From positions 80,007 to 144,006 of the forward strand of contig JAFVUD010000005.1 of assembly GCA_017502865.1 (NCBI GenBank): a stretch of 64,000 nt of DNA, in the 5' to 3' direction. The notes under the pieces were generated by a model. The model was not told where the DNA came from and did not search any database. It saw only the letters and a list, made by a program, of their open reading frames with translations. This DNA is from Alphaproteobacteria bacterium. GTDB lineage: Bacteria > Pseudomonadota > Alphaproteobacteria > Rs-D84. Position 1 is the first letter of the stretch. Each line of letters begins with the position of its first letter. A program made the translations under genes and the position numbers. Shown here in pieces: positions 11,856 through 60,618 of this stretch.

Positions 11856-14282
11856 TTACTCTGGTTTAACAAAGCATGTACCATTTTCCCAGTATCCATT
11901 CCCCAGGATTGTGCACTGCTGTTGATACCACGCATCGGTAAAGATACATTCGTCTGTGGTTGCATTATAAGTTGCCAATGGTGATTCTGCACCTGCATTA
12001 TATGCTTCACAGCGAACCTTGATTGTGTTTTCAATACACACACCCCAGTCTTTTCTGTCTTCGTCCCCGGCATAAACATTTTTGTAAAATGCTTTCAGTG
12101 TTGGTGTTGTACCTTGTTCATCTGTTTCAACCCAGTATCCATCCAACGCTTCACATTCTTCTAATAATTGGTATTCCAACTGTTCTGCGATATCCTGGAT
12201 AGACTTTTCAACCTGGATACGTGTCTGTGTTGGCAAAGAATCAAAACTTTTGTCTGTGGCCGTTGGATTTGCACAGTTATCCACTGCAAACTGTTTTATG
12301 TTCGCCGTCAACGTTGCTGTCAATTCTGGGCTTTCTGCATCTGTAATCGCCCCCAATGGCTTCAATCTGCAATTCCATGGGAATTCGTGTGTCCCAGTTG
12401 TTGGTGTACACAGTTCGGTCACATAATTATCAATTGCACCCGAACAACCTTCGGCTACACGCACCGTATCAACGTTGTCCACGAACGCCAACAGGGCGGT
12501 CAATCCACACGATGCAGATGCTGTCAAAGAACTGCTGGAATTGCCCTTGGTTAATTTACCATTGCCGTCAAATTCACACCCATCTGTATTGCCATACAGT
12601 GATGCACATGCAATAACTTTGTCCTGGCACATTTCTTTGGCGGCATAGACCGAAATCGCACCGGCTGCCTGGGCGGTTGTGTCATCGAAACTCTTTAACG
12701 CATTTGTCTGGGTGTCATAACATTCTTTCATTGTGCTGACACACGACATTCTAACTTCTTCTAACTTTACGTCTTGGGCCTGGGCAATTTCAATCAGTGC
12801 CACACGCTTAAATTCATCCCATACGACCTGGGAAATATCACGACATGAATCCAACGCAGTCGCTGCAAACATCTTGCGTGTTTCCAGGAACGAATTAAAC
12901 TGTTCATTCTGGGTCAAGATATCCGCACTGCCGTCCAGTTTGATTAAGTCGGTCAATTCAAACAAACGTGGGCTGTAAATCGGTTCGCCCGTTGATTGGT
13001 TAATATACGCCCCAGAATAGTCCAAACAACGTTTATAGTTTGCACCGCACGCCGTATCCTGGGTCAGGGCACTGCGAACCTTGTCCAAACATTCATTAAC
13101 GTCGGCACTGTTATGTGAACGATATTCTTCTAAACGGGCCTCTCTCAAATATTTTTCAGCCTGACGAACAGTCTGCAAAACACCTTCTCGTTTTGCATCA
13201 ACGTTCTTTTCATACGCATTACAGTCTTGGGAAATCATAATGCCATACGCACTTTGTGCCATATTAGACACCGCAGTGCTTTGGCATGTATCTTTGACCA
13301 TTGCAACACACTGTGCACTGGCGGCATTGTACAATTCCTGACCTTCTAAATCATTTAAATTGGTACCTGTACCACCACCAAAAATAGAACTAACCCCACT
13401 GCTGGACCAAATGTCACCCGCATCGGCGGTAAAATCTAAATCCAACACGCCCAACGAACCACCGGTACTTTTTGCAGGTGTGCTGCTTTTCTTTTTGCCT
13501 GATAACAAATCGCCAATTTCATTCAAAATAGACTGGGCACCACTGACGTCATTTTTAATCGCCATTTCACCAACCGTGGCTGTGTACATGGCGTTTACTT
13601 CGGCCGCCGTCTTGTCAACTGCATTCAAATTATTGTCTTCAAATTGCATCAACAGACGTTTTGCTTCGTCCATTGCATATTCTGTATCACGAAATTCTGT
13701 AAAACGAGAACTGCAAAAACAACGACGATATGTTTCATTTGCTTTGGCACAGAATTGATCCATACATGTTGCATACGCATCACGACAACCCGCATATCCG
13801 CCACCAATCTTGGAAACATCATCAAACACAGCCGTCGCACGTGCCAAACCTGCACGGGACACACCCGATGTTGATGCGTTTGTTGCACTGCGGGCTGTAT
13901 TGGCTACATGTGCTGCCGCACTGCGTGCAATATTCATACCACTGCGTGCATTTGATAACTCTTGTTTTGCCTTGCTGGCATTTGCGGTCGCTGCACGTCC
14001 CGACACACGTCCAGCCGCCGGTGCCACAACCCCAGAACGGGCCACATTTGCATTTGCCCGACGTCCCGTGTTCGTGGTTGCCGCACGGGATACAACCGTC
14101 TGGGCAACATCTGTATTCCCATCCCCACGTTTAACTGCACTGCCATCAGCACGCTGGGGTGCAACAATGGAATTCGATGCAGCACGTGGATTTTGTGGTT
14201 GGGCCGCAACCAATGCACCTGTTGTGCAAACAGCTGTCAACAGGGCAGAAAACTTTATAAAATCGGCGATACGTGTTTTCAA
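11856..14282 (-). CDS. large exported Cys-rich protein, paralogue of the 57991-60618 protein
   Basis: 808 residues. The only in-frame start is TTG at 14282, preceded by a stop and by GAGAG. A signal peptide (MKTRIADFIKFSALLTAVC to LVAAQ) leads into about 120 residues rich in Ala, Arg, Ser, Thr, then a Cys-containing helical body. YATCMDQFC, YRRCFCSSRF, CGANYKRCLD with TGEPI, and CEALDGYWVET have clear counterparts in the 57991-60618 protein (YFTCMDQFC, YRRCSCNDR, CGKNYHKCLD with TGAPI, CTNLQGRFIET). Probably periplasmic or cell-surface with disulfides. No known domain recognised. Neighbours on both sides on the minus strand are also unknown envelope-type genes. Confidence 0.8.
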   Translation of the reverse strand: MKTRIADFIKFSALLTAVCTTGALVAAQPQNPRAASNSIVAPQRADGSAVKRGDGNTDVAQTVVSRAATTNTGRRANANVARSGVVAPAAGRVSGRAATANASKAKQELSNARSGMNIARSAAAHVANTARSATNASTSGVSRAGLARATAVFDDVSKIGGGYAGCRDAYATCMDQFCAKANETYRRCFCSSRFTEFRDTEYAMDEAKRLLMQFEDNNLNAVDKTAAEVNAMYTATVGEMAIKNDVSGAQSILNEIGDLLSGKKKSSTPAKSTGGSLGVLDLDFTADAGDIWSSSGVSSIFGGGTGTNLNDLEGQELYNAASAQCVAMVKDTCQSTAVSNMAQSAYGIMISQDCNAYEKNVDAKREGVLQTVRQAEKYLREARLEEYRSHNSADVNECLDKVRSALTQDTACGANYKRCLDYSGAYINQSTGEPIYSPRLFELTDLIKLDGSADILTQNEQFNSFLETRKMFAATALDSCRDISQVVWDEFKRVALIEIAQAQDVKLEEVRMSCVSTMKECYDTQTNALKSFDDTTAQAAGAISVYAAKEMCQDKVIACASLYGNTDGCEFDGNGKLTKGNSSSSLTASASCGLTALLAFVDNVDTVRVAEGCSGAIDNYVTELCTPTTGTHEFPWNCRLKPLGAITDAESPELTATLTANIKQFAVDNCANPTATDKSFDSLPTQTRIQVEKSIQDIAEQLEYQLLEECEALDGYWVETDEQGTTPTLKAFYKNVYAGDEDRKDWGVCIENTIKVRCEAYNAGAESPLATYNATTDECIFTDAWYQQQCTILGNGYWENGTCFVKPE

Positions 14283-33695: not shown

Positions 33696-35336
33696 TTATT
33701 TTCCCCCACCCCAAACAGATGGAATGTTGGCATAATCATCCAACCCTGTATCATCTTTATACATATTCCCAACCTGAGCATTTGTGGCATCTGGCCAAAT
33801 ATCATACAAATACACGCCTTCTATTGTTGCAGACGGTCCCGACAAATCATACGCACGATAAAACATTTCCATAAACATCCCAGACTGGGCATCGCCTTGT
33901 ATTTTACCAAAGATTTCACCATCAAAACCGGTCAAGCCCGAACAATTAAAAAATGTGCGGTAAAACATTTGAACCGCTGGTGGCCCATATATTCCACCAA
34001 ATAACCCCCCAGGTAAATTACCACTTAAACCGGAACAACCTGCAAATGTGTTATAAAACATTTTTTCTGCTGGCACGCCTGCAATGCCTGCAAACAATGT
34101 CGCCGGCACCTGATATTCCAGCGCTGCACACGAATTAAATGTCCCTTCGAACATTCGTTTAGCCGGGGAACCATTTATACCTGCAAACAAATTCGCAGGA
34201 ATTGCCCCCGTCAACCCCTTGCACGAAAAGAAAGTATTCCCAAACATCAATTCCTGTGGTGCACCATCAAACACACCAAACAATGCATCTGGAATACTAC
34301 CACGCAACCCCGTACAACCATAAAATGTTGCATTATACATCCTTTGTGCTGGTGCACCATTTATCCCAGCAAACAAACCATTTGGAATTTCTGAAATACC
34401 CGTACACCCAGAAAAAGTACCATGAAACATATCACGGGCAGGCGGTCCACTTATTCCCGCAAACAAATTCCCTGGTACCGTGGTCAAACCCGCACAATTT
34501 TCAAATGTACGATAAAAAACACCCTCCATAGGTTCGCCCACAACCCCTTCAAACAATTCTTCTGGAACAGCCCCTCGTAACCCCGTGGCACCACTAAATG
34601 TCGCATAAAACATATTTTTTGTAGGTTTGCCACTAACACCATAAAACAGTGCAGGGGGAATTTGTCCCTCTAACGCCGTATTCCCAGCAAAAGTAGAATA
34701 AAACTTTGGCTGTCCACCATTTGCCAATGTGGAAAATATATACCCCAAACTACCCGACACCTTTTTAATATTCACATTATCTTTAAAGCTAACTGCTGCA
34801 ACCGTATTACTGCTACTGTATGCAGTCGCCTTTCCACCCATTTCAATGTCGTATGCGCCCGGCAATTCATAGGTATGTGAATACAGTGTTTCATTAGTAT
34901 CATCTCTATCGATAACGTCTTCTTTACCATCACCCCAATTTATATAAAATTTTCCTTTGGCAGATATAGTTAACGAAAACTCAACTGTATCCTCTGTAGT
35001 TTTTATCTTAAATGGTGCCCCCATATATTTAATCAGTGTTTCCACAGCTTCATTTGTTGCCACAGAATCTGCTGCCGCTGTTGTTGCATATTCTGTTCTT
35101 GCATAGCTGGTTGTGGGCCAACCATTCAATTTTTTATTTGCCACATCTATCGCCGCCAGCAAATATTCCATATTCGCCACAACCGACAAATCTGTTAGTT
35201 CTTGGTTGTACGGAACCTCTACCCCCCATTTTTGTGCAATCAAATCATGAATATATCCAACATTTACAACCGGTCCGGCGTATACTGCCGATCCCAAAAA
35301 CACCATTAAAAAAAGGCCCAAAATCTGTCGCATCAT
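33696..35336 (-). CDS. exported repeat protein with a PKD-like domain
   Basis: 546 residues. Signal peptide (MMRQILGLFLMVFLGSAVYA), an N-terminal region of about 120 residues, a PKD-like beta domain (FYINWGDGKEDV, then HTYELPGAYDIEM, about residues 135-175), and then nine or more copies of a repeat of about 30 residues with the pattern MFxxTFxGCTGLxGxIPxxLFAGIxGxPA. This resembles the BspA/DUF285 leucine-rich-type surface repeats. The repeat usually contains one Cys (GCTG). Probably surface-exposed and adhesive, by analogy only. The small exported protein upstream ends 9 bases before it and is likely cotranscribed. Confidence 0.8.
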   Translation of the reverse strand: MMRQILGLFLMVFLGSAVYAGPVVNVGYIHDLIAQKWGVEVPYNQELTDLSVVANMEYLLAAIDVANKKLNGWPTTSYARTEYATTAAADSVATNEAVETLIKYMGAPFKIKTTEDTVEFSLTISAKGKFYINWGDGKEDVIDRDDTNETLYSHTYELPGAYDIEMGGKATAYSSSNTVAAVSFKDNVNIKKVSGSLGYIFSTLANGGQPKFYSTFAGNTALEGQIPPALFYGVSGKPTKNMFYATFSGATGLRGAVPEELFEGVVGEPMEGVFYRTFENCAGLTTVPGNLFAGISGPPARDMFHGTFSGCTGISEIPNGLFAGINGAPAQRMYNATFYGCTGLRGSIPDALFGVFDGAPQELMFGNTFFSCKGLTGAIPANLFAGINGSPAKRMFEGTFNSCAALEYQVPATLFAGIAGVPAEKMFYNTFAGCSGLSGNLPGGLFGGIYGPPAVQMFYRTFFNCSGLTGFDGEIFGKIQGDAQSGMFMEMFYRAYDLSGPSATIEGVYLYDIWPDATNAQVGNMYKDDTGLDDYANIPSVWGGGK

Positions 35337-41709: not shown

Positions 41710-42285
41710 ATGATGAAACAAAAAAACGACATGATTATCATGATGGGTGGCCCCGGCACGGGCAAGGGCACTTTTTCACGTATGTTGCACGAACTGTATC
41801 CCGAATACACCCATATTGAAACCGGTGCAATCCTGCGGGCACAACCAGACGGTTCACCAATTCGCATGGCGATTGCGGGGGGCAACCTGATACCAGATGA
41901 AATGGTGTGCGATTTAATTACACAAACACTGGCCCAAAATCATGGCAACATAATTCTGGATGGATTTCCCCGCACATTGATTCAGGCTCAATGGCTGGTA
42001 AAAAACTATGCCGACACATACAACATACATGTCATATACCTGAATGTATCTGACGAAATTATGGTACGGCGAATCCAGAAACGCAAAAGCGAAGGTTCTA
42101 CCCGCCGTGACGATTCAAACATGTCAATCGTCAACCACCGTATTGAAACATTCCACAACACGACTATGCCGGCGATAAAATGGCTGGCCGGGGTGGGGAA
42201 CATAACATTTTCCGACATTGATTCCAATGGACCCGAAAATGAAAACTTTGACCATATCGTTGACGCACTGAACACAAACAAATGA
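41710..42285 (+). CDS. adk: adenylate kinase
   Basis: 191 residues, the short form without the zinc/LID insertion. MIIMMGGPGTGKGTFSRML is the phosphate-binding loop, HIETGAILRAQ the AMP-binding helix, IILDGFPRTLIQAQWL the AMP-binding block and RIQKRKSEGSTRRDD the LID arginines. It equilibrates ATP, ADP and AMP. Three ATGs (41704, 41710, 41713) are possible; the position of the -10 box at 41697-41702 favours 41710 as the 5' end of a leaderless message. Its stop overlaps the next start (ATGA). Confidence 0.93.
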   Translation: MMKQKNDMIIMMGGPGTGKGTFSRMLHELYPEYTHIETGAILRAQPDGSPIRMAIAGGNLIPDEMVCDLITQTLAQNHGNIILDGFPRTLIQAQWLVKNYADTYNIHVIYLNVSDEIMVRRIQKRKSEGSTRRDDSNMSIVNHRIETFHNTTMPAIKWLAGVGNITFSDIDSNGPENENFDHIVDALNTNK

Positions 42286-43325
42286 CCATTAAAAAAACAC
42301 TATTTTATATTTGTCTGTCTGCATGCCTGTGCGTATCGGTCCAGGCGGGATTTTTGCAACCAACAAAATTCCCATCAACGGTGGCTGATTTGTCTTATTC
42401 TGCCCAAACCGCTATGAAGGCTGATGATTACATGCCGTACGCCGGCCTTAGCCCATATCAAATTTTTCAATTACAAGAAATGGAAGATATCGCATATGCG
42501 GCAATCGAACAAGAATTAGAGCAGGCCGGTATCGACACATGCGTAAATTGTGATGAAAACGGCAATCCACAGCCCCAAGATGGCAGTACCCTTATCGTAA
42601 CGGCACCCACCACACAACCAACCCCAGAAACGCCACAACAGCCATCAACAACACCACCAACACCGGCACCACAACCAACCCAGCCTGTACAACCGACATT
42701 ACCAAATGCACCCGCCACTGGATATTGTGCCCGTCGCAGTCCATATATCCACACCGGCCAAAAAGTTCCATTTGGTCTGCCCGTGAACCTGGATGAATTG
42801 CCCGACAACGCATCAGACCGTTCCAAAAGTATTGCCAGCAACACAAAACGTGGTTTGTTCTGTTCACCATACGGTTGCGAACGTGGCCGCCCACACCAGG
42901 GGGTTGATATCGGCTGTACCGCAGATTTTTATCAAATGCCAATATACGCCACCGCAGACGGCGTTGTTGAATCAATCACACAGGCTGGCAACAATTCATC
43001 CGCCGGTAACTATATCCGCCTTAATCACGGCAACGGTTGGGTCACCCAGTACATGCACCTGGACCAAATGTTTGTCACAACCGGCCAACATGTATCTGCC
43101 GGCTGTCTAATCGGCCTGATGGGCCACACTGGCGGCAATGTTGATCAAAAAATACGTAAAATGGATCGTGCACTAACCCATTTGCATTATGAAATCGTAT
43201 ATTATGGAAAATCTTCGTACCTCCAAACACCAACCAACACAAAAATTAAAATCACCAAATATTATAAATGTGGCGATTTCAAAAGCAAAATTAAACCAAA
43301 TGAAATTATGACATACACATATTAA
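42282..43325 (+). CDS. exported M23 (LytM-type) peptidase with N-terminal FLQP module
   Basis: 347 residues. Signal peptide to A22, then a module of about 60 residues (FLQPTKFPSTVADLSYS, then DDYMPYAGLSPYQ) shared with the proteins at 50241 and 54385, then a Pro/Thr/Gln-rich linker (about 106-145), then an M23 metallopeptidase domain with zinc ligands H205 and D209 (RPHQGVDIG) and H300/H302 (THLHYEIVY). It probably cleaves peptide cross-bridges of peptidoglycan in the periplasm; all ligands are present, so it should be active. It overlaps adk by 4 bases, an odd pairing. Confidence 0.88.
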   Translation: MTIKKTLFYICLSACLCVSVQAGFLQPTKFPSTVADLSYSAQTAMKADDYMPYAGLSPYQIFQLQEMEDIAYAAIEQELEQAGIDTCVNCDENGNPQPQDGSTLIVTAPTTQPTPETPQQPSTTPPTPAPQPTQPVQPTLPNAPATGYCARRSPYIHTGQKVPFGLPVNLDELPDNASDRSKSIASNTKRGLFCSPYGCERGRPHQGVDIGCTADFYQMPIYATADGVVESITQAGNNSSAGNYIRLNHGNGWVTQYMHLDQMFVTTGQHVSAGCLIGLMGHTGGNVDQKIRKMDRALTHLHYEIVYYGKSSYLQTPTNTKIKITKYYKCGDFKSKIKPNEIMTYTY

Positions 43326-49740: not shown

Positions 49741-50211
49741 ATGTTTTCGACGATATTTTTTTATGCCGTAATACTGGTCGCAATCTGGTGTGCATACCGG
49801 ATTTCTGTCACGGATTTTCGTCGCAGAATTATACCCGATGTGTATTTGTTCCCACTGCTACTGGCCGGATTAATTTTATCGGCTTTTTATGCATGGCCAT
49901 GTGATATAAAAACCGCCGCAATCGGGGCTGTTTTTGGTTATGCCATGTCCGCAATTATTGGTGTTATCTTTGACATTCGCCTACGTCGTCGTGACCCAAA
50001 CATAATTTCACCAATTGGCATGGGCGACATTAAATTATTGGGGGTGGGTGGCCTGTGGTTGGGGACCACTGGCCTGGCCATTGCATTATTGTGTGCATGT
50101 ATCCTGGGGGGAATGTGGTCACACCGAAAACATCAAAAATACATTCCATTCGCCCCATTCTTTGTTTGTGGGGGAATTTTGGCTTTGATTGCAATAACCT
50201 TTTTGTTATAA
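49741..50211 (+). CDS. CpaA/TadV-like prepilin peptidase (A24)
   Basis: 156 residues, all membrane helices, without the N-terminal methylase domain. The two catalytic Asp blocks are present: SVTDFRRRIIPDVYLFPLLL and IGMGDIKLLGVGGLW. It would cut the leader of type IV or Flp-type prepilins in the inner membrane. No pilin, CpaB or CpaF gene is in the window. The exported operon from 50241 begins 29 bases later on the same strand, so the two may be cotranscribed. GGGAGAAAAC precedes the ATG. Confidence 0.9.
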   Translation: MFSTIFFYAVILVAIWCAYRISVTDFRRRIIPDVYLFPLLLAGLILSAFYAWPCDIKTAAIGAVFGYAMSAIIGVIFDIRLRRRDPNIISPIGMGDIKLLGVGGLWLGTTGLAIALLCACILGGMWSHRKHQKYIPFAPFFVCGGILALIAITFLL

Positions 50212-50240
50212 TCTATATAAATATAGTGGGGATATAAACG

Positions 50241-51128
50241 ATGAGAATAAATCACAAAACCTTGTTTTGTGCCATATTGGCGACATTTTGCGGTATCTTG
50301 ACCGCGTCTGCCAATACGACACCATTTTCCCAATATGGCCAAATCCAGAACGTACAAACATATTCATCAAATCCATTCTGGAATCCAAACGGCCCATATA
50401 ACCAACGCATGCCCCAGGTTGTATATGCCACCGGCCCAGATATGAACGCTGGCGATTGCCAACGTGTTGTATCATCACTGGTTGCAAACCTGTGTGCAAC
50501 AATGAACAACTGTATTGATGCCACAATCGCAGACGTTCGCCCAACATTAATGTTGCAACTGTCCAGATTACCGGGACACAATTATGCAACATCCTGTTCT
50601 GGTTGGATTGATGGGGAATTTGAAACATTCAAAAAACAGTATGCCACGGCCGGCATTAATGTTAACGCCGCTTTTCCAACTGCAACTGCACCAAACCCAG
50701 ACGCATACAACAACGGTAATATCAATATTCAAAACCCATTTGAAACAACTGTTCCCGAATGGAAGGGCGACATAATGGACCGTGCCCAAGAATTGGAAGA
50801 TTTAAAGGCACAAAGTGGCTATGTTCCCGCCCACATTGAAAAAATGGACTTTCCAACAACTGTTGCAGATATCTCATTCACAGATCGTGTAAATCTGGCG
50901 GTTGATGGATACGCCCCATTCAAAGATCTTAAGGCATACCGCACCCTGGACATCGAAGATTATGAAACATATATTACCCGCATGCGTGACAGCCTCAGAT
51001 TAAACATCACAGAATATTGTAAAAAGCATCCCAATGATGAACAATGCAAAGAACACGCAAACAACACGGCAAATCGTGAAAAAATCATGAATCAAATCCT
51101 GGCAATATTAAAAGACGCAAAAAAATGA
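50241..51128 (+). CDS. exported protein with C-terminal FP-module, first gene of a coupled operon
   Basis: 295 residues. Signal peptide MRINHKTLFCAILATFCGIL to ASA, then a Pro/Asn/Tyr-rich segment, a Cys-containing domain (AGDCQRVVSSLVANLCATMN, NNCIDAT), and from about residue 202 the module DFPTTVADISFTDR, GYAPFKDLKAYRTLDIEDYE, YITRM, ITEYCKKHPNDEQC. The same module begins the mature M23 peptidase (42282) and the GH108-like protein (54385). GGGGA precedes the ATG. Its stop overlaps the next start (ATGA). Function unknown. Confidence 0.78.
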   Translation: MRINHKTLFCAILATFCGILTASANTTPFSQYGQIQNVQTYSSNPFWNPNGPYNQRMPQVVYATGPDMNAGDCQRVVSSLVANLCATMNNCIDATIADVRPTLMLQLSRLPGHNYATSCSGWIDGEFETFKKQYATAGINVNAAFPTATAPNPDAYNNGNINIQNPFETTVPEWKGDIMDRAQELEDLKAQSGYVPAHIEKMDFPTTVADISFTDRVNLAVDGYAPFKDLKAYRTLDIEDYETYITRMRDSLRLNITEYCKKHPNDEQCKEHANNTANREKIMNQILAILKDAKK

Positions 51129-52633
51129 AAATACTACGTAACATCTGTTTATTTATTTGCTTGACTCTTGGATGCGCTGGTTCTTCAAATGCCGCCATAT
51201 CCGCCGACTGTGAAAAATACACAGATTGCGATTCATTGGTGGCATGCGAACTAACTCTCCAGGTTGAAAACGCATTAAGTGGCCTGGGTACAGATTACGA
51301 AGGGGCCGTTGCAAACGCTGCATCATACCGCACCACATGTGCCACATATCCCGATGCTTTCAAAAAAAATATTGACGCTGTTATTTCTCAAAATCCAGAA
51401 GTAAAAATTACCATCAACTGGGACAATGTCCGTAACAGAATGCGCTATGGTTCCCAGGGCAACTTTGATGATTCTGACTTGGCGCTTGTAAACCTGATTG
51501 TGGACATACTAGGTCCAGATACAGAAGCCCAGAAAAAATTCTTCAATGACTTGGCAACCGCATACGTAAACGCCAACAAACAAGATGAAACCGCACGTCT
51601 AAACGATGCGTTTGTATTGGATTTCTTGGGCACAGATGACAATTTTGAAAAATATCGTCTGGTGGTTCGTGACCTGACTGGCGATATTGTAGAAGAACCA
51701 ATGGGCATCGATATATCATGGGACGATGTATTAACAGAAATCTCAAACGTACTGGATACAACCGCCCAGAAACGCGGTGCCATTGTATGCGAAAACAACC
51801 GCTCATACCAGGCTGGTATTGATACTGCTGGCTGGATTATCACTGCTGTTGCCGCTGTCCTTACAATCTATGTTGGTGGTGCTGGTGGTGCCGCCGTTGC
51901 TACAGGTCGTGCAGCAATCGGCACAGGACTGAAAGCCGCCGCCAAAGGCATTGCCAAGGTTGGTGGAAAAGCCTCCGCCAAAAAAATGTCCAAGGCCGGG
52001 GGAAAACAACTGGCTAAAGCCGCAGTAAAACTGGGACTGAAACAAAACATGCGTGGATACGCCAACTATGCCGGCAAAGGCGTCCTGAAAGTGGGGATAA
52101 AAAAAGTTGGCGAAAACCTGTCAAAAAAATGGGCAACAATTGCTGCATCGTCTGCTGCAATCTGGGGCCTGGGCAAGGGCGCAGCCAAAGCAACTGGGGC
52201 CTCCGCCGGCACATTCTACAGTTTATTAAGCAGTGATTTGGACAAAGAATTCCTGAACTGTCACGACCTGGATCATAACGAAGGTTGTTATACTGTTTGT
52301 GGCGACGGCCAGGCCAACGACTATATCAACAAATACGCATTACAACCAGTTTTGAACAAAACATATTGCGTTAATCCAACCGACTATGCACTGTATGAAA
52401 TCAACCCGGACGGTTCACGTGGCAAATTATTAACATTCGATGCAAACAAACAATCTGCGATTGTAAGCCGTCTGAAACAACATGTTGTTGACAAAGGGAC
52501 ACGTAAATTAGGTTGCGATTGGAACGAAGACGACATCGATATGTACTTTGGTTTTTACATATACGACCCGGACACCCTGGAAATATCTGAAGAAGCAATG
52601 GTTATTGACGATGCAATTCGACTGGATGACTAG
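51125..52633 (+). CDS. exported protein with glycine-zipper-like membrane segments
   Basis: 502 residues. Signal peptide (ICLFICLTLGCAGSSNA), a Cys-containing helical N-domain of about 200 residues, a hydrophobic segment near 235-256 (GWIITAVAAVLTIYVGGAGG), about 80 residues of Lys/Gly/Ala-rich amphipathic sequence (KAAAKGIAKVGGKASAKKMS), a second hydrophobic segment near 336-352 and a C-terminal Cys domain (CYTVCGDGQANDY, YCVNPTDYALYE). The centre resembles membrane-inserting hairpins of pore-forming or envelope-spanning proteins. It overlaps both neighbours by a few bases. No family recognised. Confidence 0.75.
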   Translation: MKILRNICLFICLTLGCAGSSNAAISADCEKYTDCDSLVACELTLQVENALSGLGTDYEGAVANAASYRTTCATYPDAFKKNIDAVISQNPEVKITINWDNVRNRMRYGSQGNFDDSDLALVNLIVDILGPDTEAQKKFFNDLATAYVNANKQDETARLNDAFVLDFLGTDDNFEKYRLVVRDLTGDIVEEPMGIDISWDDVLTEISNVLDTTAQKRGAIVCENNRSYQAGIDTAGWIITAVAAVLTIYVGGAGGAAVATGRAAIGTGLKAAAKGIAKVGGKASAKKMSKAGGKQLAKAAVKLGLKQNMRGYANYAGKGVLKVGIKKVGENLSKKWATIAASSAAIWGLGKGAAKATGASAGTFYSLLSSDLDKEFLNCHDLDHNEGCYTVCGDGQANDYINKYALQPVLNKTYCVNPTDYALYEINPDGSRGKLLTFDANKQSAIVSRLKQHVVDKGTRKLGCDWNEDDIDMYFGFYIYDPDTLEISEEAMVIDDAIRLDD

Positions 52634-54383
52634 GTTTGTCATTATATTATCATCATTGTTTTTGCTGATTAATAAACCAGCATTGGCAAACACAGTCCAA
52701 TCACAGCCCGCTGAAAACGAAATCACATTGGCAGATTACCTGGAACGGGAACCAGACCAAACCGAATGTGCGACGGCGGCATTTGCCGATGCATTGGCGG
52801 CAAACGCATCACAAATTTCTGCCGATGCATACGAAAGCGATGTTCGTCTGTGGATAAACACCGTGTTTGCAGCCCCCGCAACATTGGATGCCGTTTTGGC
52901 ATGCCCAGAACTGCAAAACACCCCAGACACCCAGGCCATTAAATTTATGCCAATTATGTACACATTCCCCAATGGTCGTGAAATTGTCATTAATTACGAA
53001 ACCCAGCCGAAAATTCTAAAACAACGACGTACACTGGGCAACAAACGTGAATTACCAACCGACGGAAACGCCAATCCACGCATTGGTGCCACCGGCGACG
53101 ATTCCATATGGACATACACAGATCCTGCATGGTACGCAATTATGATAACCGAACACGGTGCACTGGACGAATTTGCTGGTCCTGGCAAAAACAACACAAT
53201 TTCTATGGATTACATTCGTGATAATATCGACGACCTGTACCCATCTGGATATAATTGCAGCGACAAAAGTGCCAAATCACGTGATATCACCATGATACAC
53301 CGTGCCACAAAACAGACCGTTGGCCTGGCCGATGCTGGCGAAAAAGATTCCAACGACTATTACATTGCCGGTGACGTAAATCTGCAATGGTTGTCATATC
53401 TGGAAATTGCACTGGACGTCGCATTAACTGTTGTCACAGTTGGTGGATCCCAGGCTGTGACCGGCGTGACCAAGGCCGTCCGTGCATCACGTTCATTAAA
53501 AACACTATCCCAATCATTACGTGGCCTGCGTACACTGGATTCTGTTCGTGATTACATCCGTCTGTCCAACCAACTGGATAATGCAAAAGATGCGTTAAAA
53601 AAATTAGACCGTATTACAGATGCCGCAGAATACCGTAAAAAATCCCGTGAAATCGATAATCTAACCGACCGCATGCGTCAAATGGAACGTACCGACGACA
53701 ATGTAAAAAAATTCAAACAACAATCCGAAACATTCCAGCAACTTAACCAGTACCGCCATCAATTACAGGCCCTGCGTGGTCGCAGAACAACCGGCAACAT
53801 TATCACCCGTGGGTGGCGTACACTGCGTGCCGTTAACAGCGGTGGCAAACAATTAAACAACGCCGCCAAATTGGCCCGTTCTGCCCGCATTGGCCGCACC
53901 AGCACACTGTCCGGCCGTGTACGTGATTGGCTGTTTCAATCCACAATGTCAAACATCGGTGCACTGGGGAAACTGGCCGCCACAGGCACACTGATTTCTG
54001 GTGCATTAAAATTCATAGGTGGCATGTACGATTGGACCGAAACCAGCACCGGTGAATACACCAGCGGTGTTGATTTTGCACCATTGTTGCTATTATCTGC
54101 CGACGATTTACAGGGCCAAGAAAACGTTGTTAATCACGGCATGTGGTTGCTGTGGTCGGGCAGCTCGACCAGCCCATCTGACGACGATGCCGCATACCTG
54201 CAGGCCACCGATTTTGCATCCAAACTGCACCAGGATTTATACGAAATGCAGAACGACACCGCATCACCCTGCAACGTTGACATCTGGGTTGTACGTCCTG
54301 TATTACGCAACCCACAATCTGAAACACCCCAGTTATATTACCTGATTATGAACGACCAACCATGGACAACCGCAGACAAATAA
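52626..54383 (+). CDS. exported protein with two membrane segments and a coiled coil
   Basis: 585 residues from the ATG at 52626, chosen because it gives a clean signal peptide (MTRFVIILSSLFLLINKPALA) and an 8-base overlap with the upstream gene. A Cys-containing N-domain of about 230 residues, a hydrophobic segment near 255-275 (YLEIALDVALTVVTVGG), a basic coiled coil (about 310-385, including REIDNLTDRMRQMERTDDN), a second hydrophobic segment near 445-465 (LGKLAATGTLISGALKFIGG) and a C-terminal domain. The plan matches that of the preceding protein, so they may be partners or distant relatives. Unknown family. Confidence 0.75.
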   Translation: MTRFVIILSSLFLLINKPALANTVQSQPAENEITLADYLEREPDQTECATAAFADALAANASQISADAYESDVRLWINTVFAAPATLDAVLACPELQNTPDTQAIKFMPIMYTFPNGREIVINYETQPKILKQRRTLGNKRELPTDGNANPRIGATGDDSIWTYTDPAWYAIMITEHGALDEFAGPGKNNTISMDYIRDNIDDLYPSGYNCSDKSAKSRDITMIHRATKQTVGLADAGEKDSNDYYIAGDVNLQWLSYLEIALDVALTVVTVGGSQAVTGVTKAVRASRSLKTLSQSLRGLRTLDSVRDYIRLSNQLDNAKDALKKLDRITDAAEYRKKSREIDNLTDRMRQMERTDDNVKKFKQQSETFQQLNQYRHQLQALRGRRTTGNIITRGWRTLRAVNSGGKQLNNAAKLARSARIGRTSTLSGRVRDWLFQSTMSNIGALGKLAATGTLISGALKFIGGMYDWTETSTGEYTSGVDFAPLLLLSADDLQGQENVVNHGMWLLWSGSSTSPSDDDAAYLQATDFASKLHQDLYEMQNDTASPCNVDIWVVRPVLRNPQSETPQLYYLIMNDQPWTTADK

Positions 54384-54384
54384 A

Positions 54385-55557
54385 ATGGCACACCATACAC
54401 CATCTTTATCAATACTGATATTTGTCATGACCATGGGATTGGCAAACGCATCTTTTCTGCAACCGGTCAGTTTTCCAAAAACCGCCAACGATGCATCATT
54501 TATAACCCAAACCAATAACAAAGCCACGGGCTATGAACCATTTCGTGGTAAATCGGCATACCGCACACTTAAAATAGAATCCCAGGAAGAGTATATCGCC
54601 CGCATGGTTGCCGCAGCCGAGGCCGAAAGCCAACACGACCTGGCCACAATGACAATTGCAGAATATTGCGACAAATATCCACTGGATGCAAAATATTGCA
54701 GACAAACCCCAGATCTGTTTAATCAAATCGCCGCTATTGGGAACCAACAAACGCCGTCCCAGCCAACGGTTCCACCAACGCCAACACAACCAACAGAACC
54801 TGGACAACCAACAACACCTGTCCAGCCAACAACACCAACGACACCCACACAACCTGTACAACCCACACAACCTGTACAACCAACGCAACCATCGTTGGCC
54901 GGTCCTGTTGTCGGGTACAGCACATCTGGCCAACCTGTAATCGCCAGTTCCAAGATACACAACGGCCCATGCACCCCATCACAACGCAGTACACATTTTG
55001 CAAACGAAATATACACAACGGGCCAATACGAAATATCCGATCCCGCTTTTGACAAAGCAATGGCCACAACTTTCCGCACCGAAGGCGAATGTGGCAACGA
55101 CCCCGACGATACCGGCGGCTATACATGCTATGGCATATCACAAAACAATAATCCCGAAGTTGATGTTCGCAACATAACACGTGCCGATGCCGAAAGAATA
55201 GGGCACGACAAATACTATACCCGCTATGGCATTGAAAAATTACCCGACAATTCACGTGGCAATGTATTCATGCTGGGGTGGGCCGGTGGCACCATCACAG
55301 GCATTCACCGTTTTTGTAATTTTCTGGGCATAAAAAAACGCAACAAAATCGATGCCGAGGTTGTATCTGCCGCCGAAAACTATCCTGGCGACATCCACAA
55401 CGATTTCCTGAACAACCAACAGGAATTCTATATCCAGGTCGCCAGACGTGGCAACAACAGAAAATTCTTAAAGGGCTGGATGAACCGTGTTCAATTAATG
55501 CGTGAAAACGGCTGTCACACACCAACGACAAAACCATTAACACGAAATGCGTCATAA
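54385..55557 (+). CDS. exported GH108-like muramidase with N-terminal FLQP module
   Basis: 390 residues. Signal peptide to A22; module FLQPVSFPKTANDASF, GYEPFRGKSAYRTLKIESQE, YIARM, IAEYCDKYPLDAKYC (24-105); a Pro/Thr/Gln linker (about 124-170, with PVQPTQPVQPTQP repeats); then a domain resembling GH108 N-acetylmuramidases with the probable catalytic E233 in FRTEGECGNDPDDTGG, the CYGIS turn and ITRADAERIGHDKYYTRYG, and a C-terminal peptidoglycan-binding-like part. It probably cuts the glycan strand of peptidoglycan. Last gene of the coupled operon, one base after the previous stop. Confidence 0.82.
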   Translation: MAHHTPSLSILIFVMTMGLANASFLQPVSFPKTANDASFITQTNNKATGYEPFRGKSAYRTLKIESQEEYIARMVAAAEAESQHDLATMTIAEYCDKYPLDAKYCRQTPDLFNQIAAIGNQQTPSQPTVPPTPTQPTEPGQPTTPVQPTTPTTPTQPVQPTQPVQPTQPSLAGPVVGYSTSGQPVIASSKIHNGPCTPSQRSTHFANEIYTTGQYEISDPAFDKAMATTFRTEGECGNDPDDTGGYTCYGISQNNNPEVDVRNITRADAERIGHDKYYTRYGIEKLPDNSRGNVFMLGWAGGTITGIHRFCNFLGIKKRNKIDAEVVSAAENYPGDIHNDFLNNQQEFYIQVARRGNNRKFLKGWMNRVQLMRENGCHTPTTKPLTRNAS

Positions 55558-55563
55558 TTCTTA

Positions 55564-55592
55564 TTGTAAAAACGACCGTAATTTCGTATAAT
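55564..55592 (+). promoter_or_regulatory. promoter of the 55622 gene
   Basis: TTGTAA (55564-55569), 17 bases, TATAAT (55587-55592), then 29 bases to the ATG with AGGGGA before it. Confidence 0.7.
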
Positions 55593-55621
55593 GTAAGCAT
55601 AAGCAACCCAGGGGAAAAGAA

Positions 55622-55939
55622 ATGAAAAAAATATTTGCCGCATTATTATTGATAACAACCGCTATTGGTTCTGCATCTGCATACCAGGTTATGTCTTCCA
55701 AAGAATTAGGCAAAAACGATGCCCGCAATCAAAACGTTGTTGTAAAATGCACCACTGATACCGGCCGTGTATCAAACCAAACATGTTCTTTACGCCGCTA
55801 TGCAAAATGCACCGGCACAGGCAACAACAAAAATTGCGCTGGCTGGCAACCATGGAAAGATTTACGCAACCCATCAAAAACATATTCCGATTGGCGTTCG
55901 GCCGCATCTGCATGCTGCCGTGCCAAGGGCCTGCGTTAA
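55622..55939 (+). CDS. small exported basic Cys protein
   Basis: 105 residues. Signal peptide MKKIFAALLLITTAIGSASA, then about 85 residues, basic, with six Cys (VVKCTTDTGRVSNQTC, RRYAKCTGTGNNKNC, ASACCRAKG) and several Trp. The Cys spacing and size are reminiscent of secreted disulfide-rich effectors or inhibitors, but no family is recognised. It has its own promoter and terminator, directly after the coupled exported operon. Confidence 0.72.
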   Translation: MKKIFAALLLITTAIGSASAYQVMSSKELGKNDARNQNVVVKCTTDTGRVSNQTCSLRRYAKCTGTGNNKNCAGWQPWKDLRNPSKTYSDWRSAASACCRAKGLR

Positions 55940-55950
55940 GACAAACAAAA

Positions 55951-55972
55951 AACCGCCGATTGGCGGTTTTTA
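55951..55972. terminator. terminator after the 55622 gene
   Basis: AACCGCC (55951-55957), GATT, GGCGGTT (55962-55968), then TTTATC; As before it provide Ts for the opposite strand gene. Confidence 0.8.
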
Positions 55973-56674
55973 TCTTTGTTTGTCATCTAAAATAAACAAA
56001 TGACAATCTGACAAAACCATATCATGAATTGCCGCATCTTTGTTCGGCACCTTCCACCATCTTTCTGTAGATTTCAGCGGTTCCAACGCAAACACAAAAC
56101 CTGAATCACGCAAAGTTGTCTGATTTACCGCCGCCCGTGCCATAATTGGTGCATCACCACCAACAATAACACAGCCACTTTCGGTCTCTTTACCAATATT
56201 TTTCTCGATATCACTGCGACGAACCATATATAAATATGTTTCATTACCATCTGGCAGGCTGTACCAATTTGGTCCAACCGACATACCATCATATATGACT
56301 AATTTGTACTGATTGCTGGCAAACACAAAAAAGTCTGTCGCCTGTAATTGGTTCTTGCCCCATTTACGCACCAACGCAAATCGCAGTGCCATTGCCAAAT
56401 CACCCAGGAACAACCGCAACCGAAAATAATCTTCTTTGGCCTCTAACACGTCCTTGCCGGGGGCCAGTTTTATTGGTGATCCATGAAACAAATATTCCCC
56501 ACTGAATCGATATTGAATCATGTCTTTTAAATGCATTTCTGGCATAATTGGGGGCAAAATACCTGTTTTCGATGTTTCTTGTTTTACCTGGCCAGATTGC
56601 GATTGTTCTGGCTGTGGCCGCATTTCTAATTCTGCTTTAATCGTGCCCCAGAAATTTTTCAAACCATTTTTCAT
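55970..56674 (-). CDS. FHGSP protein, second of a tandem pair
   Basis: 234 residues from the ATG at 56674, which has AAAGG 9 bases before it; a GTG two codons upstream is less likely. No signal peptide. Shared blocks with the upstream paralogue: YLFHGSPIKLAPGKDVL, LAMALRFALVRKWG, DFFVFASNQYKLVIYD, PIMARAAVNQTTLRDSGFVF and RWWKVPNKDAAIHD. The His-Gly-Ser and following GxxL block recalls the start of ADP-ribosyltransferase-like folds (Arr, for example), but the other catalytic residues cannot be assigned from sequence alone. Cytosolic; function unknown. Confidence 0.7.
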   Translation of the reverse strand: MKNGLKNFWGTIKAELEMRPQPEQSQSGQVKQETSKTGILPPIMPEMHLKDMIQYRFSGEYLFHGSPIKLAPGKDVLEAKEDYFRLRLFLGDLAMALRFALVRKWGKNQLQATDFFVFASNQYKLVIYDGMSVGPNWYSLPDGNETYLYMVRRSDIEKNIGKETESGCVIVGGDAPIMARAAVNQTTLRDSGFVFALEPLKSTERWWKVPNKDAAIHDMVLSDCHLFILDDKQR

Positions 56675-56680
56675 AGACAC

Positions 56681-57316
56681 TTACCTTTGATTTTCAAAAC
56701 ACAGCATTTTATCGGTCAACACATGTTCTTTAATAACCTTGTCTTGGTTTGCAACCCACCACCATCGTGACGTTGTTTCCGGATTAACATCAACTGCGAA
56801 CACAAATCCATTTTTACGCAGTGCATTTGGCGTAACCATTGCCCGTGCCACAATCGGCACCGCATTAATAGATGTTTCTTCTTTTGTAATCATTTCACGT
56901 GGCACCGCATAGATATATGCCGGCACATTCGAATTCCGCCACCCGACACCAATTTCCGCCGACGAAATTACAATTCGATAACTTTTACTGACATACACAA
57001 AGAAATCTTTACCACATTCTTGGTCAACACCCCATGTACGCACCATTGCGAACCGTAACGCATCGTTTAACAGCCCTGCAAAAACCAGTCCTTGCCCACG
57101 TACACCACTTTTTGTACTGGGGCGCAACATATCTGTTCCCGGCTCTAACTTTACAGGCGAGCCATGAAAAAAATATTTATTTTCATCCCTTAATTGCAAC
57201 ATTTGTTCCAACGACACTTCGCCAATTGGCACGAATCTGGGGCAGGGCTGACATTGCACTTCATCCGCCACAACTTGCTTTCTAGGTCTAAAAAAATCTT
57301 TTAAATTAAGCCTCAT
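56681..57316 (-). CDS. FHGSP protein, first of a tandem pair
   Basis: 211 residues from ATG 57316 (MRLNLKDFFRPRKQVVADEV). A longer frame is rejected because the promoter TTGACA-16-TACACT lies inside it and would start transcription at about this ATG, leaderless. Blocks: YFFHGSPVKLEPGTDML, LNDALRFAMVRTWG, DFFVYVSKSYRIVISS, PIVARAMVTPNALRKNGFVF, RWWWVANQDKVIKE. It is a clear paralogue of the 55970 protein, whose gene begins 6 bases further on. Possible ADP-ribosyltransferase-like fold, unproven. Confidence 0.7.
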   Translation of the reverse strand: MRLNLKDFFRPRKQVVADEVQCQPCPRFVPIGEVSLEQMLQLRDENKYFFHGSPVKLEPGTDMLRPSTKSGVRGQGLVFAGLLNDALRFAMVRTWGVDQECGKDFFVYVSKSYRIVISSAEIGVGWRNSNVPAYIYAVPREMITKEETSINAVPIVARAMVTPNALRKNGFVFAVDVNPETTSRWWWVANQDKVIKEHVLTDKMLCFENQR

Positions 57317-57324
57317 ACTAAAAC

Positions 57325-57352
57325 AGTGTACTACAAACATGCTTTTTGTCAA
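57325..57352 (-). promoter_or_regulatory. promoter of the FHGSP pair, leaderless type
   Basis: TTGACA (57352-57347), 16 bases, TACACT (57330-57325) on the minus strand. Only 8 bases separate the -10 box from the ATG. Confidence 0.65.
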
Positions 57353-57365
57353 CAATAATTCCAAA

Positions 57366-57385
57366 AGAAAAGGCGGCATTGCCGC
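57366..57385 (-). terminator. terminator after tRNA-Val
   Basis: On the minus strand GCGGC, AAT, GCCGC (57385-57373) is followed by CTTTTCTTTT. It closes the tRNA cluster before the FHGSP promoter. Confidence 0.65.
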
Positions 57386-57932: not shown

Positions 57933-57990
57933 TTTGGCTTATTATTTCACTTGCCCTGAAATTTACAAATTTGCTAACATTAAACCAGAG

Positions 57991-60618
57991 ATGAAGAAAA
58001 TTCTGGTTTTTGTACTGTCTGCAGTTATGGGTATCGGCACGTCCGATGCGGCTGTTCGTGATGGAAATGCCGCCATTCGGGCCAAAGGCGACACAACCCA
58101 ACCAACCCAGCAACGCATTTCAACTACATCTAAGTCAGATAAAAATACCGCCCGCACAACCGCACTGGTTCCACGCAACACATCATCAAACCGGGGTACC
58201 ACTGCACGTGCAACAAATGCAACGAAATCAAACCGTGGCACCACAGCCCGCACCGCAACAAACACGGTAACCCGTACTGCAAACCAAACATCGGTCCCAC
58301 GTTCAACCATTGCCCGTGCCACCGACACTGACCCAACCGTTCCACAAACACGCACAGGTGCAGAATACGAACGTTGCAAAACCGCATACTTTACCTGCAT
58401 GGACCAGTTCTGCACATTAAAGAACGATGATTATCGCCGCTGTTCCTGTAACGACCGTGTTTTTGAACTGACCGAAATCCGTGATGTTATGACCCAGGCT
58501 GGCGAAAAATTAACTGTATTCACAGAAAACCTGGACATAATTGGCATGACCGCCGCCCAGGCGACCGCCATGATTACCGCATCCGAAGGTGAAAACGCAT
58601 TAACCGCCGACACATCTGCATCCAAGGCTTTATTACAAGCCATCATGAATTCTATCCGTGGCGAAGATTCCACCGTTGGGGGCAAATTTACAGACCTGAA
58701 CAGCATCAATATTTCTTTCGACAGTGCAAACGCATTTGGCAATGCGGATTCCGGCCAAATCATTGCCAGTTATAATGGCAAAAACCTGTACAATGCCGTA
58801 TATCCACAATGCCGCGAAGCCGTCCGTGCCGATTGCAACGACGCATCACTGCAACGTGCAATTACTGCATACCTGATGGCAATTGAACAAGATTGCAACA
58901 CCGTTCAAACCGCCATCCAGGAAAATCAAAAGAAAATGAAATCTGCCGTGCGTGAAGGCAACGCCATGCTGGACCTGGCCCGTATCGAAAATCGCCAAAA
59001 ACATAATTCATACGATGTTACAACATGCTTGGCCAACGTAGAATCCGCAATCCTTAGCGAAGAAGTATGTGGCAAAAATTACCACAAATGCCTGGACAAC
59101 GGCGAATTTATTGATGTCACAACCGGTGCACCAATCGCAGGGGTTGCTAACTTCTATAAACTGGAAGAAATGCTGTCATTTTCATCTGGCATTGATGCAT
59201 CTGAACAGAAATTATCAAAAATCAACCGCAACCGCCAATTTGTTGCCAATTTCGAAAGCAAAACAAAAAAATTCGCAGAACCCGTCCTGGATAAATGTGT
59301 CGAAGATGCAGATTTAGTCTGGGCCGAATACCTGGACAAAGCATTGCTAGACATTTACTATGCCCAACGTGCCAAGGTTGCAGAAATCAAACAGGGTTGC
59401 TTTGATTTTGTATCGAACTGCTATGTCAACAGTGACGACGCATTAACCGATGCTATGAAGAACCTGTTGGGCGACAGTGCTATTTCCGTCACCCCATCAA
59501 AAATCGTGTTAAATACACAAATGTGCAATGATTACGTCCAATCATGCAACAATATGTTCGATGGGGACATCATAGCCCAGTATATCCAAGAACGTGAACA
59601 AACCGATATTCTGGCATCTTGCCGTGCAGTGGTAAAACAATGCTTTGATAAATTTGGTGGCACCGGCTATGAAAACTTCTATTATCCATACAGTGGCCTG
59701 TTTATCCCAGACACAGAAAGTGCACCAGAATGGTTCACACTGTATGAAATCGTGGCCGACCCAGACGTCACAGATGCCCCAACCGAATTCTTTGTCCGTG
59801 AAGGAATCGACGGCCATGTACGTTATAAATCCGCCTGTGCCAAGCAGTTGGCAACCATAGATGCCTGCAATTCCCCAGAAATGATAGAGCAGGCATTCGG
59901 CGGCCTTGATCAAATGTACGTTATAGCACCAGAAACCGATTCAACAACCGACAACAGCAGTGGACAAACAACCGCCGCCGACAGCATTACATACCAGTAT
60001 GTAGGGGCAGAAACCGACAACGAGGGCAATGTTGCTGTGATAAAATATGGTCTGCAACAAAAACAGAACAATACAACCATGTTGTCACATCGCAATCTGC
60101 GCCCAACAGGGGTCGCCACAGAAATTTACAACCAGGTTATTGACATTCTGGCTACCCAGTGCACCAACTTGCAGGGTCGCTTTATTGAAACCCAGCAAAT
60201 CAAAGCCTCGCAATACCAAAGCGATGATTATTGTTTAAAAACTGGCACCGACCAAACATTGGTGGACACATACGGCATCGGCGAAGGAGAAAACATGTGC
60301 CCACGTGACTATAAATTGGACGTAGATACAAAATCTTGGGGTGCATGTCTGTGTTGGGAAAATGGCGGCCGCCGCAGCAAATGGGGCCAATCCCCAAAAT
60401 GTGTCGCAGCCTTGCCAACTACTACCGATGCAAACGATGCTGTTTGCTCTACAATCGGCGATGTTAGCCTGGAGACACCAAATGCAACCAGTACTGCAAA
60501 ATGGTGCACACAAACCATTTTATCCTCTGATCAGCAGGTATGCCCACTTGGCTCTTCCAGTACTGCAAACTGTAATACCAACATCAGCGAATTGGTCCCT
60601 GCTGGAAACAAGAAATAA
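57991..60618 (+). CDS. large exported Cys-rich protein, paralogue of the 11856-14282 protein
   Basis: 875 residues from the ATG at 57991, chosen for the signal peptide MKKILVFVLSAVMGIGTSDA; a longer frame adds 19 residues without one. About 110 residues of Thr/Arg/Asn-rich low complexity with near repeats (SNRGTTARATN and SNRGTTARTAT) follow, then a mostly helical Cys-containing body with YFTCMDQFC, YRRCSCNDR, CGKNYHKCLD, FDFVSNCYVN, CNDYVQSCNN, and a C-terminal Cys domain (WGACLCWENGG). The blocks match the 808-residue protein at 11856. Periplasmic or surface location inferred. No known domain. Confidence 0.8.
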   Translation: MKKILVFVLSAVMGIGTSDAAVRDGNAAIRAKGDTTQPTQQRISTTSKSDKNTARTTALVPRNTSSNRGTTARATNATKSNRGTTARTATNTVTRTANQTSVPRSTIARATDTDPTVPQTRTGAEYERCKTAYFTCMDQFCTLKNDDYRRCSCNDRVFELTEIRDVMTQAGEKLTVFTENLDIIGMTAAQATAMITASEGENALTADTSASKALLQAIMNSIRGEDSTVGGKFTDLNSINISFDSANAFGNADSGQIIASYNGKNLYNAVYPQCREAVRADCNDASLQRAITAYLMAIEQDCNTVQTAIQENQKKMKSAVREGNAMLDLARIENRQKHNSYDVTTCLANVESAILSEEVCGKNYHKCLDNGEFIDVTTGAPIAGVANFYKLEEMLSFSSGIDASEQKLSKINRNRQFVANFESKTKKFAEPVLDKCVEDADLVWAEYLDKALLDIYYAQRAKVAEIKQGCFDFVSNCYVNSDDALTDAMKNLLGDSAISVTPSKIVLNTQMCNDYVQSCNNMFDGDIIAQYIQEREQTDILASCRAVVKQCFDKFGGTGYENFYYPYSGLFIPDTESAPEWFTLYEIVADPDVTDAPTEFFVREGIDGHVRYKSACAKQLATIDACNSPEMIEQAFGGLDQMYVIAPETDSTTDNSSGQTTAADSITYQYVGAETDNEGNVAVIKYGLQQKQNNTTMLSHRNLRPTGVATEIYNQVIDILATQCTNLQGRFIETQQIKASQYQSDDYCLKTGTDQTLVDTYGIGEGENMCPRDYKLDVDTKSWGACLCWENGGRRSKWGQSPKCVAALPTTTDANDAVCSTIGDVSLETPNATSTAKWCTQTILSSDQQVCPLGSSSTANCNTNISELVPAGNKK

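Follow-up and report, generated by a model that had tools for sequence, protein, structure and literature searches.

An alphaproteobacterial envelope locus with an exchangeable middle gene and a matching tail on its neighbour

The window, by which we mean the whole stretch of 64,000 nucleotides that was analysed, contains a run of tightly packed genes (49741-55939, forward strand) encoding a prepilin peptidase and the exported proteins A to E. Comparison with relatives revealed that the interval between A and C is a slot which, as judged by profile comparison, is filled by one of at least four unrelated families, and that the C-terminal tail of A changes together with the slot gene. The architecture of the locus is well supported. 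From it we infer a function, namely that the locus builds a pilus-linked envelope assembly with one exchangeable part, a tentative reading that we regard as a serious possibility, though short of probable.

Layout and distribution of the locus

The genes are closely spaced (Table 1), with a gap of 29 bases between the peptidase gene and A, overlaps of 4 bases between A and B and of 8 bases between B and C (whose start codon is the ATG at 52626), and a single base between C and D. These spacings and coordinates agree with a first-pass annotation of the same DNA, which had also reported signal peptides on A to D and a small Cys-rich exported protein after D. Both observations hold, and a Sec-type signal peptide is found at the start of E as well. 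Prepilin leaders are absent from A, the slot proteins and C, which have ordinary Sec leaders instead. Matches to known families were limited to the peptidase and D. The peptidase scores 59.5 bits against PF01478 (cut-off 26.5) and contains the GxGDxK motif as GMGDIKLL. D matches the GH108 profile PF05838 (E 1.1e-13, 51.9 bits against a cut-off of 21.2) and the phrog_315 endolysin family (E 1.3e-28), its residue E233 and the adjacent motif residues are invariant across 10 relatives, and a weak peptidoglycan-binding domain accompanies the FP module, linker and GH108 domain. No Pfam or NCBIfam family was found for A. Just downstream of the locus, on the opposite strand, lies a tandem paralogous pair (55970-56680 and 56681-57379), a copy of which is found nearby in some relatives.

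Table 1 Features of the locus and related genes in the same genome
Feature	Position	Strand	Description
Prepilin peptidase (Peptidase_A24)	49741..50211	+	Pfam PF01478, E 4.9e-16; first gene, constant
Gene A	50241..51128	+	Exported putative scaffold/adaptor: four-Cys helical domain, FP module, slot-specific C-terminal tail
FP module of A (~55 aa)	50841..51005	+	From alignment and family-wide search
C-terminal tail of A, B1 type (..KIMNQILAILKDAKK)	51006..51125	+	In swapped unit; homology breaks here
Gene B, the slot gene, family B1	51125..52633	+	Exported; hydrophobic segment, basic loop, Cys-rich C-terminal region
Gene C	52626..54383	+	Constant, exported; two confident globular parts flank hydrophobic segment and coiled coil
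Gene D	54385..55557	+	FP module, Pro/Thr linker, GH108 muramidase; optional member
FP module of D	54463..54627	+	At mature N-terminus; from profile match, alignment and family-wide search
Gene E	55622..55939	+	Small (105 aa) Cys-rich exported protein; near-constant, downstream
M23 peptidase with FP module	42282..43325	+	Separate from locus; exported; PF01551 E 3.2e-22; FP module at mature N-terminus
Dispersed type IVb pilus genes	G000 C6: L118:9150-13826, L124:7498-10130, L060:9741-16187		
Vir-type type IV secretion genes	L117:12437-15216, L114:13677-15884, L059:6267-10952, L105:13842-14801		

The genome that contains the window is 0.89 Mb in size, and its nearest named relatives are Candidatus Enterousia, gut Alphaproteobacteria of the order Rs-D84 (PMC12306168). 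A profile search found C in 156 of the 201 genomes of the order (107 of the 126 better ones), all of them in the window's own family, and in a class-wide sample of 385 genomes the matches to C were confined to the window's own genus. The A profile had no match in twelve genomes of sister families, C was not found in viral contigs and B was not found in phages. By these searches the locus is a core feature of a single family, in which it apparently originated. We ruled out reading it as an accessory island, since C and the FP module both count among the family's core features.

In relatives, the locus occupies a conserved site beside gcrA and retains the peptidase, A, one slot gene, C and usually E. 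The peptidase gene directly adjoins A in 74 of 75 testable relatives, the remaining one being a mis-called gene start; thus, the arrangement is not due to chance. E lies at most 2.5 kb downstream of C in 70 of the 75 loci, with ~67-81% identity between relatives, and only 18 have D directly after C. What stays constant is the peptidase-A-C-E set, with D as an optional extra. A and C, as constant parts, co-evolve (rank correlation of identities 0.59). One relative (G100, at L053) retains A, a B1-type slot gene and D with no C adjoining them, so C is not strictly needed. The first-pass annotation had taken A to D for a single envelope device with its own wall-cutting enzyme, a set to be sought in relatives as four genes kept together. 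What stands of this is a conserved, family-wide locus tied to the peptidase, with a GH108 enzyme in the operon of some genomes, but the four genes are no fixed set and are not kept together in relatives, most of which have unrelated genes in place of B and many of which lack D after C.

The slot between A and C and the tail of A

The A-C interval nearly always contains a single gene, or else A is fused to the slot protein; one locus has a split slot. The occupants fall into family B1 (the type in the window), B2, B3 and B4, plus singletons. B4 is a clear paralogue of C. B2, the largest slot family, has a glycine-rich hydrophobic segment and many cysteines; its best match among Gly-zipper profiles is a weak one to PF13441 (E 1.6e-4), seen in 7-8 of 32 members. 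Profile comparison, which stops short of very remote homology, found no relationship among B1, B2 and B3 or of these to C. An apparent likeness by eye of C-terminal regions, among slot families or between slot proteins and C, fell within the shuffled background in hhalign comparisons of both full and C-terminal profiles, and an 89% match between alignments A2 and A8 was discounted because A2 includes one B3 member. No copies of B2 or B3 were found elsewhere in the window's genome.

The tail of A differs by slot type. Next to B1 it ends in an amphipathic stretch (e.g., ILAILKDAKK), next to B2 in a three-Cys segment ending in LKGTY or similar, and next to B3 in a short hydrophobic strand such as ILFIL or VFRI. 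These motif rules were drawn up after viewing the tails. Independently of them, a nearest-neighbour test predicted the slot type correctly in 56 of 61 cases from the A tail, against 38 of 61 from the conserved part of A. Fusions of A to the slot protein were seen for B1, B2, B3, B4 and rarer slot types. Since the tail type follows the slot type and A-slot fusions exist, there is good indirect evidence, drawn from sequence, that A and the slot protein bind each other and form a complex.

We mapped slot type onto a tree of 80 C proteins, mostly from the loci closest to the window's C. This required at least 29 changes, where the minimum possible is 7 and the mean for shuffled labels is 37.4; with the well-supported branches alone, B1, B2 and B3 still require at least 12, 12 and 11 changes, respectively. 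In 11 close pairs of loci, nucleotide identity of ~70-93% runs through the peptidase gene and A, stops just after the FP module of A and resumes near the start of C. Thus, what is exchanged extends from the tail of A through the slot gene to the very start of C; this unit contains no immunity gene. Homologous recombination in the constant sequence on either side could account for the joint replacement of these parts. Nearly all of the relatives' sequences are metagenome assemblies, and very remote homology is possible by profile, which leaves room for the swapping to be an assembly artefact or for the slot families to be distant homologues. We consider this very improbable: the swaps are numerous and recurrent, the flanks are too divergent at these identities for easy mis-joins, the tails change with the slot and the fused genes carry matching tails.

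We also inspected the membrane topology and folds of A, B and C. The first-pass annotation had described paired hydrophobic segments in B and C around a basic Lys/Gly/Ala-rich region or a coiled coil. The Lys/Gly/Ala-rich loop in B and the coiled coil in C are present, but only the first internal hydrophobic segment of each protein passes the usual threshold in the window (B 238-256, C 256-274), the second being marginal. In one B1 relative a basic loop lies between the hydrophobic segments and the outer parts are acidic, and in C all four cysteines are invariant and lie in the outer parts. Periplasmic ends with a cytoplasmic loop would fit this pattern, a topology read only from hydrophobicity, charge and cysteines, with a marginal second membrane segment. 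The structure predicted for C (mean pLDDT 79) is confident in its two globular parts, one at each terminus; between them lie a hydrophobic segment, weakly predicted, and a coiled coil of helices. The model of a natural A-B fusion (mean pLDDT 60) is poor except for the helical domain of A. Fold searches with C (PDB and viral structures) and with the fusion (PDB) returned nothing below E 0.02. The tripartite alpha pore-forming toxins AhlC, XaxA and YaxB matched C with Foldseek E values of at least 0.14, probably driven by the coiled coil. Further candidates were set aside: the VIA-align rows for C cover the coiled coil only, the top rows for A (Z ~6 over 70 residues) reflect common helical arrangements, and matches of C to Pfam coiled-coil families are noise.

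The FP module, wall enzymes and pilus genes

Of 113 genomes of the family, 106 carry the FP module (~55 residues), with between one and four copies apiece. The sharing of this module by A and D, reported in the first-pass annotation together with the GH108 domain of D, is real: the FP profile matches A with E 3e-22 and D with E 1e-24, as well as the separate M23 protein at 42282 (E 5e-15). Among the copies read, the carriers were limited to A, GH108 proteins, M23 peptidases and one SGNH-like protein. All carriers other than A are exported enzymes, in which the module mostly forms the mature N-terminus; in A it is internal. FP-GH108 proteins occur inside or outside the operon and are sometimes preceded by a whole A domain. 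The SGNH-like hydrolase (L248:1043-2179, the same as L151:13551-14687) was recognized by motifs alone, has no Pfam match and is possibly a peptidoglycan or polysaccharide esterase.

The presence of one module on hydrolases of several bond types could also be read in terms of wall growth or division, with A, the slot protein and C forming a housekeeping complex that scaffolds FP-tagged peptidoglycan hydrolases and the slot protein being an interchangeable structural part. The near-universal presence of the locus in the family agrees with this, as does the fact that every part is periplasmic or membrane-bound as predicted from sequence. However, core growth machinery does not as a rule trade a subunit for unrelated proteins among close relatives, and in the sister families of the order, whose genomes are equally small, neither A (sought in twelve genomes) nor C was found. 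Hence we judge a housekeeping complex unlikely.

The genome contains type IVb pilus genes scattered in clusters, encoding PilO, an ATPase, a T2SSF protein, a secretin, TcpQ, a PilS-like pilin and large prepilin-like proteins. Prepilin-like proteins are encoded at L060:9741-13621 on contig C6. When the genome pieces were scanned by motif, a single prepilin peptidase turned up, namely the first gene of the A-C locus. Since TcpQ is present in 191 of the order's 201 genomes, some from families that have neither A nor C, the type IVb pilus predates the locus and is wider in range. The position of the peptidase next to A may thus reflect operon history. A published survey of the lineage mentions type IV pili for another lineage only (PMC12306168).

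A dispersed vir-type secretion system is present in the same genome, with VirB4, VirD4, VirB10 and VirB11 homologues recognized by profile and VirB3, VirB8 and VirB9 guessed from position and sequence. The locus might then be a lineage-specific accessory to this system, in which D and the M23 peptidase play the part of VirB1-like wall enzymes and the slot protein supplies a variable substrate or pilus tip. This appears improbable, as no vir gene was recognized beside the locus in relatives, where the conserved neighbour is the prepilin peptidase.

A possible pilus-linked assembly and its comparison with known systems

In the pilus-linked assembly that we favour, the tail of A would hold the slot protein, and C would anchor the assembly in the inner membrane with both of its ends in the periplasm. 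As a tag for docking or secretion, the FP module would gather A and the enzymes that carry it (GH108 D, M23 and SGNH-like) in one place, most likely at the machinery of the type IVb pilus, whose peptidase is encoded by the operon's first gene. There the FP enzymes would open the wall. The slot protein would be the secreted or surface-displayed part, and contact with hosts, partners, rivals or phages would provide the selection that maintains its several versions. A bolder version, which we think possible though unlikely, is that the locus is a new modular secretion or display system in which FP is a type IVb pilus signal for wall enzymes, A is a universal adaptor whose tail loads unrelated slot payloads, and recombination in the constant flanks allows a symbiont with a tiny genome to swap its contact or attack protein as a unit.

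No known system matches the locus by profiles or by folds, in line with the first-pass annotation. The closest comparisons are partial. The type IVb pili of R64 and TP114 likewise have a prepilin peptidase beside a gene with exchangeable versions, and the genome here encodes the same pilus type. In the R64 pil operon the wall enzyme PilT is encoded next to the peptidase gene. The exchangeable R64 protein is a minor prepilin with a type III leader, whereas the slot protein here is no prepilin. Whole unrelated genes are swapped between genomes here, in contrast to the inversion of segments within one genome there, and B2 and B3 have no silent copies in the window's genome. In TP114 the adhesin is PilV, with a C-terminal domain switched by the shufflon (PMC9045228). 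A second likeness is to pilus-dependent secretion by the TcpF/TcpB and CofJ/CofB pairs. TcpF is a secreted protein encoded in a pilus operon, and its flexible N-terminus is recognized by a minor pilin (PMC9565799). The FP module stands at the mature N-terminus of the wall enzymes here, but it is internal in A, and the likeness is drawn by analogy rather than from sequence. We do not claim membership in the PilV or TcpF systems on the strength of such analogies.

Type 10 secretion, with its TtsA-like muramidase and holin, resembles the locus in tying a GH108-type muramidase to exported proteins. However, D carries a signal peptide and an FP tag of its own, it scores 30.9 bits against the holin-associated muramidase model NF040573 (below the cut-off of 240), and no holin gene was recognized in the operon. 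Polymorphic toxin and tail-fibre-chaperone cassettes also combine a constant module, an exchangeable module and a matched small partner region; here, in contrast, whole slot genes are replaced between two constant genes, and no immunity gene, toxin domain or fibre domain was found.

The resemblance of slot-type switching to polymorphic toxins, the hydrophobic and often glycine-zipper segments of slot proteins such as B2 and the tag common to the slot partner A and the wall-cutting enzymes would suit a contact weapon. Slot proteins would be membrane-active toxins delivered into other cells, the FP-tagged muramidase and endopeptidase would cut the target wall and slot diversity would record an arms race. 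We regard this as rather unlikely, given that the swapped unit lacks an immunity gene and that the slot families have no toxin domain match above the cut-off; C is constant and so cannot be a type-specific immunity protein.

The bacteria concerned are widespread in guts and uncultured, with genomes of ~1 Mb, and are probably dependent on other cells. A published survey says of their hypothetical membrane proteins only that they may serve transport or cell contact (PMC12306168). A swapped middle gene with a matching tail on its neighbour points to a molecule under selection in cell contact. The pilus-linked assembly predicts that each tail binds its cognate slot protein and that a short tag is common to several wall enzymes; should FP turn out to be a signal for secretion by the pilus, the range of pilus-dependent secretion would widen to include wall-cutting enzymes.

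The window encodes other exported proteins as well. Two are large and Cys-containing (57934-60618 and 11856-14282) and belong to a family with about a dozen paralogues in the genome and no Pfam match. Another exported protein, at 33696-35336, likewise has about a dozen paralogues across the genome.
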